A stretch of 64,000 nucleotides of DNA from Clostridium sp. HBUAS56010. GTDB taxonomy: Bacteria; Bacillota; Clostridia; Lachnospirales; Lachnospiraceae. The notes beneath the pieces were generated by a model, which worked only from the letters and a program-made list of their open reading frames with translations, searched no databases and was not told where the DNA came from. The stretch lies in contig NZ_SULJ01000008.1 of NCBI RefSeq assembly GCF_007115105.1, forward strand, positions 62,001-126,000, given 5' to 3'. The translations under genes were made by a program, and so were the position numbers. Numbering within the stretch: position 1 is the first letter of the stretch; every line of letters begins with the position of its first letter. Of the stretch, positions 14,877-58,719 are shown piece by piece.

Positions 14877-14906
14877 CTCATATTACCCCCTTATCTGCAT
14901 ATTATA
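14877..14906 (+). promoter_or_regulatory. Putative sporulation sigma promoter of the first Csp-like gene
   Basis: CTCATATT (14877-14884) and CATATTATA (14898-14906) are spaced 13-15 bases, depending on the boundary chosen. This resembles sporulation sigma factor sites (SigE: TCATATT with CATA-type -10; SigG/SigK also share CATA). The second tandem gene has the same arrangement at 16639, and this agreement is the main support. Confidence 0.5.
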
Positions 14907-14944
14907 AAACAAATGCTTCTTTTGAATCGGACCGGGAGGCAAAT

Positions 14945-16624
14945 TTGGAAAAAATTCTGGATAATGATTATTACGATCTTATTATCAATAACATTTCAAT
15001 CCCGCTCGTTGATTCGGGAGATAATGTCACGATGCTTAATTTCAGGCATTCTCTTGTAAATATACCAAGAACCGACTTCGACCCCTGTATTCTTGGAGAG
15101 TATCCATATCACAATTTTCCAACCTTATATATTCCCACTTCTACCATTAGTATTGAAAAATCAGGGATTGGCAATGTTCAGCGTAACCCTTTTTTGAATC
15201 TAACCGGCCGTGGCGTTCTTGTGGGCATTATTGATACAGGAATCTATTATCCTAACTCCGCATTCCGTTATAATGATAATACAACCAGAATCCTTTCAAT
15301 CTGGGACCAGACCATTCAGACAGGCCCCATACCGGAAGGTTTCACCTTTGGTACAGAATATACCAGAGATATGATTAATCTGGCTCTTACAGCGGAAGAT
15401 CCATTTTCTATGGTTCCCACTACGGATACAAATGGTCACGGCACTGCCATTGCAAGTGTAATTGCAGGCAGACCCAATGCAGACACTTCCTTTTCCGGCG
15501 TTGTACCAGAAGCAGATCTGGTGGTGGTAAAGTTAAAAGAAGCAAAACCAAATACCAAACAGGTTTTTTTTGTCCCCGAAAATGTACTTTGTTATGAAGA
15601 ATCTGACATTATGCTGGCTCTGCGCTATATGGAATCTGTTGCACTGAAAGCCAGCCGCCCCATGGTTATCTGCATTGCACTTGGAAGCAGTCAGGGCGGC
15701 CATGACGGAAGCGGTGCATTGAGCAATTATTTGAATTATCTCGCACGGATTCCAGGAATTGGAATCTCTGTTTCCGCAGGCAATGAAGGAAACTCCAGAA
15801 GACATTATTTTAACAGCACTTCTGCCGCCCCTTTTTTTCATGATTTTGAATTAAGGGTTGGAGAAGAGGATAATCTTTTTTCCATGGAAATATGGCCTTA
15901 TGCTCTGGGCAGGCTCTCCATTGATATTTCTTCCCCAAACAGGGAATCCACCCAGCAGATCTTTCCTCAGATCAGGGATTGCCGGGTATATAACTTTATT
16001 TTTACTCCCAGTATTGTGTGGGTCAACAATTTCCTGTTTGAAGAAGAAACCGGGGACCAGCTCATACTTTCCCGCTTTCAGGATGCCCTTCCTGGTGTAT
16101 GGCGCATCCGTATTCAAAGTCTGGAAGATACTCCTCTTTCCTTTCATGCCTGGCTGCCTGCCGGGAATATGATTTCAAATGAAACCTATTTTGTCAATGC
16201 AAATCAGGACACTACCATAACCTCTCCAGGCAATGCCCCCAACCAATTGACCGTAACTGCCTATAATCAATTCAATGACAGCATACTGATTGAATCCAGC
16301 AGAGGCTATACCCGCAATGGACTTGTAAAACCGGATATTGCTGCACCGGGATATCAGATTCCCTGTGCACTGCCGGCTAACGAATACGGCACCTTAACCG
16401 GGACCGGTGCTGCCGCTGCTCATGCCGCAGGTGCCATTGCAATGATCATGGAGTGGGGAATTACAAGAGGAAACTATTCCGTTTTGACTGGTTATGATGT
16501 AAGCCGTCTCATCATAAGAGGTGCAAGGCGTGACCCCTCCATTGTATATCCAAACAACATATGGGGATATGGGCAACTGGATGTCAACATGCTTTTCCAG
16601 AGACTGGCAAACATCCAGTCCTGA
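14945..16624 (+). CDS. Csp-like subtilisin-family protein, catalytic Ser replaced by Gly (copy 1)
   Basis: S8-family protein (559 residues) resembling the Clostridia germination proteins CspA/B/C: short pro-region (1-85), subtilase domain and an internal beta-rich insert (about 310-440). Asp97 (GIIDTGI) and His165 (TNGHGT) of the triad and the oxyanion Asn (SAGNEGN) are present, but the GTS serine is Gly488 (LTGTGAAAAHAAG), so it should be a pseudoprotease. The TTG at 14945 has GGGAGG 5 bases upstream; an ATG 27 codons earlier lacks an SD. Adjacent to a paralogue and splB, so likely a spore protein. Csp homology is by recognition; the germination role is inferred. Confidence 0.85.
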   Translation: MEKILDNDYYDLIINNISIPLVDSGDNVTMLNFRHSLVNIPRTDFDPCILGEYPYHNFPTLYIPTSTISIEKSGIGNVQRNPFLNLTGRGVLVGIIDTGIYYPNSAFRYNDNTTRILSIWDQTIQTGPIPEGFTFGTEYTRDMINLALTAEDPFSMVPTTDTNGHGTAIASVIAGRPNADTSFSGVVPEADLVVVKLKEAKPNTKQVFFVPENVLCYEESDIMLALRYMESVALKASRPMVICIALGSSQGGHDGSGALSNYLNYLARIPGIGISVSAGNEGNSRRHYFNSTSAAPFFHDFELRVGEEDNLFSMEIWPYALGRLSIDISSPNRESTQQIFPQIRDCRVYNFIFTPSIVWVNNFLFEEETGDQLILSRFQDALPGVWRIRIQSLEDTPLSFHAWLPAGNMISNETYFVNANQDTTITSPGNAPNQLTVTAYNQFNDSILIESSRGYTRNGLVKPDIAAPGYQIPCALPANEYGTLTGTGAAAAHAAGAIAMIMEWGITRGNYSVLTGYDVSRLIIRGARRDPSIVYPNNIWGYGQLDVNMLFQRLANIQS

Positions 16625-16638
16625 GCCTTTTTGCACCG

Positions 16639-16668
16639 CTCATAAAGGCATTTCCTGCGCATATGATA
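16639..16668 (+). promoter_or_regulatory. Putative sporulation sigma promoter of the second Csp-like gene
   Basis: CTCATA (16639-16644) and CATATGATA (16660-16668) separated by 15 bases, the same spacing and nearly the same elements as before copy 1. It lies 38 bases upstream of the TTG start, in the short gap after copy 1. Confidence 0.5.
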
Positions 16669-16706
16669 TATTATACATTTTATCCAGACAGACAGGAGGC
16701 AGATTT

Positions 16707-18380
16707 TTGAGTAAAATTCTAGATAATGACTACTATGATTTATTCATAAGTAATATTTCTGTCCCTTCCTATGATACAGGGGATAATATCACTTATCTGA
16801 GTGAACGTAATTCGCTTCTTCATGTCATAAGAAGTCAGGTTGAACCATGTGACCTTGGAACCTATCCATATGCTTCTTTTCCCTCTATCTACACCCTTGA
16901 ATCAACCATAAGTATTGAAAAATCCGGCATAGGAACCGTCCAGAGAAATCCCTTTTTAAGTCTGTTTGGCCGCGGAGTAATTGTAGGGGTAATTGATACC
17001 GGAATCGACTATCAGCATGAGGCATTCCGCAACAACGATGGAACCACACGTATTCTCTCGATCTGGGATCAGAGTATCCAGACAGGAAGCATACCGGAGA
17101 ATTTTACCTTTGGCAGTGAATACAGCAAAGAAATGATTGATGAAGCACTGACTTCCGAAGACCCCCTCTCCATTGTTCCCTCCACCGATACCAACGGCCA
17201 CGGAACAGCCATCACCAGCATTATTGCCGGCAGACCTTCTGAGGACGGCAGCTTCTCTGGAATCGTTCCCCAGTCAGATATTATTGTAGTTAAATTAAAA
17301 GAAGCAAAGGAGAATCTAAAAGATATCTTCTTTATAAGAAAAGATGTGCCCTGCTTTCAGGAATCTGACATCCAACTGGGGGCAAGATATCTTTTAACCG
17401 CCTCTCAGCGGATTGGAAAACCGGTCGTTATCTGCATTGCACTCGGAAGCAGCCAGGGAGCCCATGACGGCAGAGGCATACTGAGTTCTTACCTTACCTA
17501 TATAGTCCAGCTTCCCGGAATTGGTGTGGCAGTTTCCGGGGGAAATGAAGGAAATAAAAGAAGACATTATTTTAATAATACCTCTGTTCCCCCATTTTTT
17601 AATGATTTCGAATTAAGAATCGGGGAAAATGACAACTTTTTCTGGATGGAAGTATGGGCATATGCCCAGGAACGGATTTCCATTGATGTGTCCTCTCCCA
17701 ACAGAGAATCCACTCAACGGATATTTCCAACCCTGGGAGACTGCAGAAGATTTAATTTTATCTTTACCCAAAGCGAAATCTGGGTTAATAACATTATTTT
17801 AGAAACAGAATCAGGCGATCAACTGATTCTTATTCGTTTTCAAAACCCGGCATCTGGTATCTGGTACTTTCGTGTCCAAAGTGTGGGAGACGAACCTTTT
17901 GGCTTTAACGCCTGGCTCCCAAACGGAGATTTATTATCCAATGAAACCTTTTTTCTCAATCCCAATCCGGATACAACCATTACCTCGCCTTCAAACGGCA
18001 GCAATATGCTGACCGTAACTGCTTATAATCAGCTCAATGACAGCATTCTCCCGGAATCCAGCAGAGGATACGCAAGAAACGGTCTTGTAAAACCAGATAT
18101 CGCTGCTCCAGGTTTTCAGATTCCATGTGCTGTCCCAGGCAATCTGTACGGCACTGCCACAGGTACCGGAGCCGCCTGCGCCCATGCTGCTGGAATTATC
18201 GCAATGGTTATGGAATGGGCAATTCCAAGGGGAAATTATATTTCCATGACTGGAAATAATGTGAACCGGCTTATTATCAGGGGAGCAAGACGCAGTACCA
18301 CAGAACTTTACCCCAATAATGTGTGGGGATACGGACAAATTGATATAAACAATTTATTTGAACGTCTGGCAAATATCTGA
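16707..18380 (+). CDS. Csp-like subtilisin-family protein, catalytic Ser replaced by Gly (copy 2)
   Basis: Tandem paralogue of the preceding gene (557 residues, closely similar along its length). Asp97 (GVIDTGI) and His165 (TNGHGTA) are kept, and Gly488 (ATGTGAACAHAAG) stands in place of the catalytic Ser, in exactly the position seen in copy 1. The long open frame begins inside copy 1, but TTG 16707 with AGGAGG seven bases upstream gives MSKILDNDYYDLFISN, colinear with copy 1. It precedes splB by 122 bases. C. difficile CspC also has Gly at this position and acts in germinant signalling. A similar non-proteolytic role is an inference. Confidence 0.86.
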   Translation: MSKILDNDYYDLFISNISVPSYDTGDNITYLSERNSLLHVIRSQVEPCDLGTYPYASFPSIYTLESTISIEKSGIGTVQRNPFLSLFGRGVIVGVIDTGIDYQHEAFRNNDGTTRILSIWDQSIQTGSIPENFTFGSEYSKEMIDEALTSEDPLSIVPSTDTNGHGTAITSIIAGRPSEDGSFSGIVPQSDIIVVKLKEAKENLKDIFFIRKDVPCFQESDIQLGARYLLTASQRIGKPVVICIALGSSQGAHDGRGILSSYLTYIVQLPGIGVAVSGGNEGNKRRHYFNNTSVPPFFNDFELRIGENDNFFWMEVWAYAQERISIDVSSPNRESTQRIFPTLGDCRRFNFIFTQSEIWVNNIILETESGDQLILIRFQNPASGIWYFRVQSVGDEPFGFNAWLPNGDLLSNETFFLNPNPDTTITSPSNGSNMLTVTAYNQLNDSILPESSRGYARNGLVKPDIAAPGFQIPCAVPGNLYGTATGTGAACAHAAGIIAMVMEWAIPRGNYISMTGNNVNRLIIRGARRSTTELYPNNVWGYGQIDINNLFERLANI

Positions 18381-18502
18381 TTTGATTAAAAGATATAAAA
18401 GGTTTCAGTTAAATTGCCCAGATTACGTTCCTATTTTTGTGCAAAATTGTGGGAAGCCATTCATTCTTTTCACACATACTACATAAAAACAGGAGGTATC
18501 TG

Positions 18503-19498
18503 ATGTTTCCCGACAAAATTTATTATGAACCAGCTTCTCTTGATTATGAATCAGGAAAGTTTTTAAAAGAAAAATACAATAACATTCCATGGGTGCCTAT
18601 CGAAAGCCACAACAGAATTGATGAACTCCGCACTCAGCCCAACAAGGAATTTACCAATTTAAAGCAGCATCTGGTAATTGGAGTAAGAAAAACCCATAAA
18701 TATGTTCCCAATCATAAAGTATCGGATTTTCTTGTTCCTTATACTTCCTCTGGCTGTACTGCCATGTGCCACTACTGCTATCTTGTCTGTAACTACAATA
18801 AATGTTCTTATCTGCGGATATTTGTAAACAGGGAACAGATGTTGAAAAAAATCATAGATCATGGAATCCGTTACGAAAAAGATTTTACTTATGAAATCGG
18901 AAGCAACAGTGATCTGGTTCTGGAAAATACCATAACGGGAAACCTTGCCTGGACGATTGAGGAGTTTCAAAAAAGTCCCTACGGTTCCCTTACATTTCCT
19001 ACAAAATTTAATAAGATTGAACCTCTGTTGGGGCTAAATCATGGCGGACGTATTATTATGAGAATGAGTGTAAATCCTCAATCCATTATCAGCCGTTTTG
19101 AACCTGGCACCTCTAATTTAAATGCAAGAATTTCAGCAATCAATGCCATGTGTGATGCGGACTATCGTGTAGGGCTGCTGATTGCGCCTGTTATCTTAAC
19201 AGAAAACTGGAAAACACTTTACCAGGAGTTAATTGAAACCCTGGCAGAACAACTGACTGAAAAAGCAAAAAAAAATGCTCCTATTGAAATTATCTTTATG
19301 ACCTACAGCTATGTGCACAACGCCATTAATTCAGAAGCTTTTCCCTCATCCGACAAGCTTTATTCCAAAGAACTGATGACCGGACGGGGAAGAGGCAAAT
19401 ACTGTTACCGCAATGACTTACGGGCTGATGGAGAACATTTTTTAAAAACTTTGATTGGTGAAAAATTAAAAGAAATGAGTATTTTATACGTTGTATGA
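18503..19498 (+). CDS. splB: Spore photoproduct lyase
   Basis: Radical SAM enzyme (331 residues) that directly reverses the thymine dimer formed in UV-irradiated spores. The cluster motif is Cys85, Cys89 and Cys92 (CTAMCHYCYL), with HLVIGVRKTHKY and FEPGTSNLNARI as further family blocks. By alignment from memory with B. subtilis SplB (FEASCTSDIV), the hydrogen-donor Cys141 position is Ser134 here (YEIGSNSDLV), while Cys96 and Cys101 lie close to the cluster. ATG 18503 has AGGAGG six bases upstream. CATACTA at 18475-18481 resembles a SigG/SigF -10, consistent with forespore expression. Confidence 0.93.
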   Translation: MFPDKIYYEPASLDYESGKFLKEKYNNIPWVPIESHNRIDELRTQPNKEFTNLKQHLVIGVRKTHKYVPNHKVSDFLVPYTSSGCTAMCHYCYLVCNYNKCSYLRIFVNREQMLKKIIDHGIRYEKDFTYEIGSNSDLVLENTITGNLAWTIEEFQKSPYGSLTFPTKFNKIEPLLGLNHGGRIIMRMSVNPQSIISRFEPGTSNLNARISAINAMCDADYRVGLLIAPVILTENWKTLYQELIETLAEQLTEKAKKNAPIEIIFMTYSYVHNAINSEAFPSSDKLYSKELMTGRGRGKYCYRNDLRADGEHFLKTLIGEKLKEMSILYVV

Positions 19499-56961: not shown

Positions 56962-58625
56962 TTAAAGTCTCAGCCAGTTAAAAAGTCCCAGGATGTCAAT
57001 ACTGCCATAACCCCAGACTGGATTTGGATATACCATAGAATTAGAACGGGATGCTCCCCTCACCAAAAGCCGACTCACATCTCTTCCTGTAATGGTGTCA
57101 TAATTGCCTCTGATTATGCCCCACTCCAACACCATGGCAGCAATTCCGCAAGCATGTGCAGCAGCAGCTCCGGTTCCGGTTCCAGACCCATATCCTCCAC
57201 CAGGCACGGGACATAATATCTGGTAACCTGGAGCTGCCAGATCAGGAACCGCCGTACGGGATGCGGAAAAGCCTCTGCTGGAATCCAGGAGAATGCTTTT
57301 ATTCTGTTGATTATAGGCGGTTACTGTCAGGGGATTTATGGTATTACCAGGGGAAGTTACTGTCGTCTCCGGAGACGCTTCCAAAAAGTATGTTTCTTTG
57401 GAAATAATCTCACCGGAAGGAAGCCATACATCAAAGTCTGCAGGCCGAAAGTCAATATTGGAAACCTTGATTCTCCAGATTCCCTGCATGGCATTCTGGA
57501 ACCGCACAACAATGAGCTGAGCACCGGTTTCTTCCTCTAAAATAAAATTGTTAACAAAAACAGTGGTGGGTCCAAAAACAAACTGAAACTTCAGGCACTC
57601 ATCAAATCTTGGATGAATGACCTTGGTGGTTTCTCTGGTTGGGGTTGAAATGGATATATTCAGCCGATAAGGCTCATAGTTCCATAATTCAAAAAAGAAC
57701 TCCTGATCTTTTTCCCCCACCCGGAGTTCAAAATCCCCTTCATAGCTTGGAGAAGATATCTTTCCTCGATAATGCCTCCTGTTATTTCCTTCATTGCCTG
57801 CTGATATACAGACTGCCGTTCCCGGATAAGTTGCCAGATTATTGATATAGTCTCCAAAAGGACCGCCTCCAATATGACCGCCCTGACTGGAACCTACCCC
57901 AATGCAGATCGCCAGGGGGCGTTTTAACTGTACTGCTACTCTGCGCAGATACTGAATTCCCAACATAATATCTGTTTCCAGATAACATTCCACCCCATCT
58001 CTGACGCAGAATATCTTCCGGTTGTATTTTTTTGCCTGCTTTAATTTAACCACTATCAGTTCTTGGAGGCAATTCCCCAAAAACCATGTTCCAACTCCTG
58101 ACTTCCGGCTGCAATTCCTGCCAGCATGGTTCCATGCCCATTGTCATCCCTGCTAGGAACAATGGATGCCGGATCTGCAGATCTAAGGGCAAGATTAATT
58201 GATTCTTTTGTATACTCAGTTCCAAAGGAGAATCCTGCAGGCGGTTTTTCTGATTCAATTGTCTGATCCCATATGGAAACAATCCGGCTGCTTCCATCCC
58301 GGTTCAAAAAGGCTTTATGCCTGTAATCAATTCCTGTATCCACAAATCCCACTAATACCCCCTGCCCATACAGGGAAAAATTAGGATTACGCTGAATAGA
58401 GGGGACCTTTGATGCCTCCAGACTAAGCACCGAATTCAGGGTAAATATAAGTGGGAAAATGGTATATGGGTATTTTCCCATAAAACACATATGAAATTCG
58501 CTGACAGGCTCATAGAGGATGGAGTGTCTGTCATTAATTGGAGTCAGATTTCCATCCTCTCTATGATTTTCAGCGAATTCATTGTTAAGCATCAGATCAA
58601 AATAATTTTCATCAACAGCTTTCAT
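56962..58625 (-). pseudogene. Third Csp-like subtilase, frameshifted; catalytic Ser also Gly
   Basis: Related to the two genes at 14945 and 16707. The N-terminal part (58625 down to about 58060) has GFVDTGIDYRHKAF (Asp) and DNGHGTMLAG (His) and ends FWGIASKN then TGA. The matching C-terminal part continues in another frame from about 58063 (ELIVVKLKQAKKYN) to 56962. A net loss of one (or four) bases near 58060-58064 breaks the gene. The serine site reads GTGTGAAAAHACG (Gly codon 57169-57171). Start is the third of three ATGs, with GGGGAG upstream. Two truncated products are possible; a sequencing error is the main alternative. Confidence 0.8.
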
Positions 58626-58719
58626 CATCATCTCCCCTCTTTCATTAGAAAATAGAACTTTCCTTATTCTATGACAGAAGATAATCGGAAATGATAAATC
58701 GTCAGAGCCTTCTTTTCTT

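Follow-up and report, generated by a model that had tools for sequence, protein, structure and literature searches.

The tandem genes W1 and W2 raise the question of what a Csp-type subtilase does once its nucleophilic serine has become a glycine. They lie in a 64,000-nucleotide (nt) stretch of contig NZ_SULJ01000008.1 from Clostridium sp. HBUAS56010 (the window, whose numbering is used for positions; residues are numbered as in W1), an organism whose genus we infer to be Lacrimispora. A preliminary description of the window proposed that W1, W2 and a third copy, W3, form a maintained, non-proteolytic family comparable to CspC of C. difficile. The answer we favour, at a probability of about 0.6, is that these proteins are regulators of the CspB-SleC pathway, made in the mother cell, which resemble CspA and CspC in being non-proteolytic and evolved independently of C. 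difficile.

W1 and W2 are Csp-like subtilases, as had been proposed. Their S8 domain (Peptidase_S8, found by Pfam in two stretches) is split by an insert and preceded by an N-terminal pro-region, in keeping with the Csp family architecture of an S8 domain with a jelly-roll insert and a pro-region, and their closest relatives are CspA, CspB and CspC. The top NCBIfam model was CspBA (278.5 bits for W1 and 289.6 for W2, both under the cut-off of 1250), and the CspC model NF040808 gave 274.9 and 275.3 bits, both under its curated cut-off of 675. Among PDB sequences, W1 ranked CspA first (2.9e-68), then CspC (3.7e-60) and then a CspB-type chain (5.3e-58). The domain order is shared with CspB of C. 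perfringens and C. difficile, whose triad is active, unlike that of W1 and W2: compared to the triad of active MEROPS S8 subtilases, both keep the aspartate (Asp97) and the histidine (His165), together with the oxyanion Asn280, and have Gly488 in place of the serine. In an alignment to the PDB sequences, Gly488 falls on the site occupied by Ser, Ala and Gly in CspB, CspA and CspC, respectively, and both the residue numbering and the two glycine codons (Table 1) are exactly as first described. A GGGAGG/AGGAGG stretch precedes both start codons, which agree with the starts of the paralogues.

The genome (G000; 3.95 Mb, 66 contigs, 99.85% complete) encodes eight glycine paralogues, namely W1, W2, W3, C12:187k, C1:51k, C1:176k and the divergent pair C1:609k/611k, all with Asp, His and Gly (the Asp and His of W3 being on its first piece). 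The preliminary description had suggested looking for an active paralogue with SleC, and a paralogue with an intact triad and a SleC are both present. A single Csp-like gene with an intact triad, C1:532310-534013, has C. perfringens CspB (1e-94) and 9sj6 (8.6e-86) as its top PDB matches, the latter being presumably CspB of C. difficile, and aligns with the CspB half of the NCBIfam model CspBA; the place of CspB is thus held by this gene and not by W1 or W2, which fall outside the CspB clade in the trees described below. SleC matches 9h68, a 'spore cortex-lytic enzyme pre-pro-form', at 1e-133. Apart from these, the S8 matches of the genome comprise two ordinary subtilases, which have Ser, and a distant S8-like protein.

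The glycine is, judged by phylogeny, one inherited state common to the eight paralogues. A quick tree of 159 rows, constructed with column 488 removed, gathered 72 rows into a glycine clade (67 with Gly, three with Ser, one with Cys and one with Ala; support of 100 in the Shimodaira-Hasegawa-like approximate likelihood ratio test), with CspA and CspC as a pair outside the 142-row Lachnospiraceae type-I clade; two Lachnospiraceae rows (L183) stood beside CspA and CspC, their placement being unsettled. A more careful tree, of 43 selected rows, supported the clade at 100/99, and a single clade of the glycine proteins and CspC, excluding intact Csps, was rejected for W1 and W2 (approximately unbiased test, p 2.9e-5, for a grouping named after the first tree). 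The earlier idea of three independent copies with the same change is accordingly abandoned, the tree placing all three in one clade that reflects a single inherited change. The parallel with CspC stands as far as the glycine at the serine site is concerned and fails as a statement of descent: the likeness is convergent, since CspC sits with CspA outside the clade, has lost the histidine as well (Asp-Thr-Gly, with Asp-Gln-Ala in CspA) and is rejected as a member of a joint clade. CspC and the glycine proteins share the Csp fold with its pro-region. The partners of CspC, an active CspB and SleC, have counterparts in this genome, and CspC is encoded in a sigma-E-dependent operon (PMC3789822). CspC differs in having Thr for His, in grouping with CspA and in being present in one copy, compared to eight here; CspA differs in its Asp-Gln-Ala, compared to Asp-His-Gly here, and in being made, in C. 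difficile, as a fusion to CspB.

The serine site was also surveyed in the Lachnospiraceae. Clade membership was cut at a hidden Markov model score of 640 bits, and L103 (669 bits, with Ser) was excluded because the tree groups it with intact relatives. All three sites were visible in 137 of 138 glycine-clade open reading frames (ORFs), 129 of which have Asp-His-Gly, a proportion not due to chance; four have Asp-His-Cys, three Asp-His-Ser and one Asp-His-Ala. By comparison, 73 other type-I Lachnospiraceae ORFs comprise 67 with Asp-His-Ser and six with Asp-His-Gly (one of the six, L102|-|3155, is a cut member of the clade), and CspB-type ORFs have Asp-His-Ser throughout (11/11). The intact-triad Csps of the family are the nearest lineage in the tree and have the same architecture; they differ in the retained Ser488 and usually give 1–2 matches per genome, CspB type counted in. 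Further Ser-to-Gly proteins were seen beyond the glycine clade in other Lachnospiraceae genera (L145, L146, L151, L157, L186), and G054 and G099 have multi-copy Csp sets with mostly intact triads.

Every one of the 25 genomes searched in the genus matches the family (E 1e-60); counting CspB-type genes, the number of matches ranges from 4, in a genome that is 67% complete, up to 16. A relative was found in 103 of 150 genera sampled in the Lachnospiraceae, and eight of the sampled genera carry a glycine-clade member by score and tree. A scan of named genomes gave 142 stretches encoding a relative, the best 80 of which (75 loci) were kept; among these best 80, the titles name Lacrimispora, Clostridium, Hungatella, Kineothrix, Faecalicatena, 'Paenibacillaceae' metagenome-assembled genomes (MAGs) and others. 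The titles of the eleven Paenibacillaceae records (SIG286-288; L027, L030, L031, L038, L049, L051, L056, L065, L088, L089, L094) are probably wrong, as these MAGs bear this Lachnospiraceae family. Roseburia, Blautia, R. gnavus and Coprococcus, whose Csps appear in a published legend (Fig S4 of PMC3567191), are absent from the titles of the best 80 of 142 stretches; one MAG among those titles is a Ruminococcus sp. Csps of the Clostridiaceae and Lachnospiraceae have been stated to have exclusively intact triads (PMC6636752) and to be all predicted active (PMC12880746), and no report of Csp pseudoproteases in the Lachnospiraceae was found among the Creative Commons-licensed PMC papers listed. By their predicted residues, the eight glycine genes and related genes of the genus form exceptions to that statement.

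Conservation was assessed in 85 non-redundant clade members over 557 columns. Asp97 and His165 are invariant in all 85, among 48 invariant columns overall, and Asn280 is kept in 81. The ratio of non-synonymous to synonymous substitution rates (dN/dS) was 0.03–0.11 in eight of nine chosen ortholog pairs, the ninth being saturated; three of the eight had dS above 2, and the five pairs with dS below 1 gave 0.05–0.11. With the Asp and His invariant and ratios indicating strong purifying selection, the family is maintained and not decaying, which bears out the proposal of a maintained family that, its serine lost, is predicted to be non-proteolytic. That its members are decaying copies of an active Csp is scarcely credible; the frameshift in W3 would fit, but the low dN/dS, the presence of the family in all 25 genomes of the genus and the invariant Asp-His pair contradict it for the family. 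Decay may apply to W3 alone, whose frameshift may stem from assembly or from nature. The glycine codon of W3 had been located correctly, although the copy is not one open gene: it consists of two ORFs split by the frameshift and overlapping at 58056-58080.

The same invariance could suggest that the proteins are still hydrolases, in which the Asp-His pair would be joined by water, a residue nearby or the substrate instead of the serine. Both CspA and CspC have lost the histidine that is kept here in 85/85 members, and a sub-clade has Ser (three ORFs) or Cys (four) at 488. We regard this as quite improbable, as no newly conserved residue stands beside 488 and the Asp-His pair may be retained because it helps the protein to fold or to bind its pro-region. 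In a model of W1, Asp97 is predicted at the end of a strand and His165 and Gly488 at the starts of helices, which is the placement of the subtilisin triad. The conserved cysteines that mark the clade are elsewhere (Cys48 in 85/85, Cys346 and Cys474 in 81/85 each) and are almost absent in intact relatives; a disulfide between Cys346 and Cys474 was considered and set aside, the two being lost jointly in three of five exceptions, too few to tell. Most of the exceptions at 488 form the sub-clade, which lies beside C1_611, with Asp and His intact and the codons AGC/AGT or TGC/TGT. The ORFs with Ser (L043, L050, L051) and with Cys (L048, L049, L052, L077) are on the minus strand and adjoin the C1_609 type. 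The sub-clade is most simply explained by a later change from Gly, by which its members may have regained activity or become a version with Cys.

A link to sporulation is suggested by promoters, co-occurrence and neighbouring genes. A two-box element (approximately TCATAWT, 12-13 nt, GCATAnnATA) lies at -48/-49 upstream of six of the eight copies. With a matrix built from 22 family-member promoters of other genomes, these six score 22.2–31.2 and ten control genes at most 4.2; the background of 400 window stretches probably includes the W1 and W2 promoters, so that its upper tail is too high (99% at 22.2). A looser two-box pattern occurs in 54 of 85 clade upstream regions, compared to 1.08 in shuffles, and in 13 of the 54 intact relatives with upstream DNA, compared to 0.77. 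The strict element has six matches in the whole genome, two on this family and four elsewhere, with none for the reversed control. The -10 box by itself had pointed to sigma K; the ATA box led us to prefer sigma E, as sigma-E promoters of C. difficile carry ATA in the -35 box and have their -10 in common with sigma K (PMC3789822). Presence of Csp and of SpoIVA is concordant in 143 of 150 genera (99 with both, 44 with neither; Fisher 1.5e-29, uncorrected for kinship), and SpoIVA is found in all eight glycine-clade genera. The pair adjoins splB, as first described (Table 1), and splB also follows the pair in 5 of 104 other loci searched (L020, L021, L022, L023, L025), where flanks were short. 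An Amidase_3 gene is found just upstream of the C1_51-type Csp in this genome (G000:C1 ~52.5-53.4k) and at 12 of the 13 loci with such a Csp (e.g. L014:7460-8389, minus strand); it has a leader-like start, and its likeness to CwlD is weak (41 bits against a cut-off of 221.55).

Table 1 Positions of W1, W2, W3 and associated features; all are in window numbering except the last row
Feature	Position	Strand	Remark
Sigma-E-like promoter of W1	14877..14908	+	CTCATATT, 12 nt, GCATATTATA; score 22.2; second box 48 nt before start
W1, Csp-type subtilase pseudoprotease, 559 aa (Asp-His-Gly)	14945..16624	+	TTG start
W1 Asp97 codon	15233..15235	+	
W1 His165 codon	15437..15439	+	
W1 GGT codon, Gly488 at nucleophile site	16406..16408	+	Aligned to Ser/Ala/Gly of CspB/CspA/CspC
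Sigma-E-like promoter of W2, in W1-W2 gap	16639..16670	+	Score 23.7
W2, Csp-type subtilase pseudoprotease (Asp-His-Gly), tandem to W1	16707..18380	+	TTG start
W2 GGA codon, Gly at nucleophile site	18168..18170	+	
splB, spore photoproduct lyase, directly downstream of W2	18437..19498	+	PF20903 3.3e-64
W3 second piece	56962..58080	-	Gly codon GGA at 57169-57171
W3 first piece (Asp + His)	58056..58631	-	Ends at frameshift
Orphan GerA-like gene without GerB/GerC neighbours	G000:C34:47890-49257		Sole PF03323 gene of G000

Several copies adjoin metabolic or transport genes (GH94, SBP_bac_5, MscL, nitroreductase), as might be expected if the proteins functioned outside spores and their spore link were merely inherited. 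The sigma-E-like promoters, the splB and amidase neighbours and the SpoIVA of all eight genera make such a function improbable.

The genus seems to be without a three-part Ger receptor, as none was found in its 25 genomes by profile searches with PF03323 and PF03845. Each genome has one PF03323 gene (465.8–485.1 bits in 24/25; split in two in G173). The score classes were checked by neighbour inspection in seven genes of the family: those above 500 bits belong to a GerA-GerB-GerC operon in 3/3 cases (G033, G082, G127), and those below 500 bits stand alone in 4/4 (G000, G127, G144, G038). PF03845, a profile that also gives matches in E. coli and others, matched at no more than 27.4 bits in 9 of the 25 genomes, four above the cut-off and none in G000, and GerB of the three operons scores 89–141 bits. 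PF05504 was found in 0/25 genomes, a weak test, as this profile is insensitive at genome level and missed G033, which has a GerC-type gene; the statement on the genus therefore rests on the other two profiles.

Several observations weigh against mother-cell-made regulators of germination. W3 (5.4) and C1_176 (-0.8) match the promoter matrix poorly, and so do the CspB gene (1.7), SleC (3.6), splB (1.0) and the SpoIID-like gene before CspB (-1.6); SpoIVA, a presumed sigma-E gene, scores 5.5 with the same spacing, no higher than the orphan GerA (5.8). As the training promoters are homologous to those tested, a match reflects conservation and not sigma-E binding. Four Csp-positive genomes (67, 86, 91 and 97% complete) have no SpoIVA. 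No column of the clade varies more than the one that corresponds to CspC Asp429, yet it is as variable in intact relatives, and variability at the Asp429 and Gly457 positions was thus discarded as a sign of new specificity; the residue matching Asp429 is fixed inside two of three ortholog groups examined. The remaining orphan GerA could act in germination, and in C. botulinum group II, germination with L-alanine is reported to require an orphan GerXA (PMC5935672). Finally, five of the eight glycine-clade genera in the family sample have an operon-class GerA; the clade is therefore not simply a substitute for Ger receptors, and loss of these receptors was rejected as its explanation.

In C. difficile, an inactive CspC:CspA pair is modelled to pass signals to CspB, which activates SleC, and CspC needs CspA for stable incorporation into spores (PMC12880746). 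As non-proteolytic regulators, W1, W2 and their paralogues would be produced by the sporulating mother cell and most likely become part of the spore, where they would act like CspA and CspC by relaying signals to CspB through contact with it, and CspB would in turn activate SleC. Signal sensing is what we infer for the glycine proteins, and a role as putative germinant receptors is plausible; with about eight variants, a spore could combine several signals. Tentatively, this extends to a fuller proposal, in which the roughly eight soluble pseudoproteases of Lacrimispora, most with their own sigma-E-type promoter, would together serve as a set of germinant sensors or gates acting on a single CspB and a single SleC, the solution of C. 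difficile having evolved independently and multiplied, with the Asp-His pair kept as part of a site that binds a ligand or the pro-region. The dependence of CspC on CspA for stable incorporation into spores (PMC12880746) would also suit proteins with a structural or assembly role in the cortex or coat, whose inactive fold would serve as a scaffold, loading for example CspB and SleC, and sense nothing; the clade-specific Cys48, Cys346 and Cys474 could cross-link such a structure. A scaffold has no obvious need for about eight divergent paralogues in separate ortholog groups across several genomes, and we consider it unlikely.

In this bacterium and its relatives, the glycine copies may be non-cutting sensors or switches that set the moment of spore germination. 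Earlier descriptions confine Csp pseudoproteases to C. difficile and its family. Another lineage of predicted pseudoproteases, expanded and of independent origin, in culturable relatives would provide a comparison for how, and whether, such proteins sense germinants and switch on CspB, and may have a bearing on spore germination in the Lachnospiraceae.

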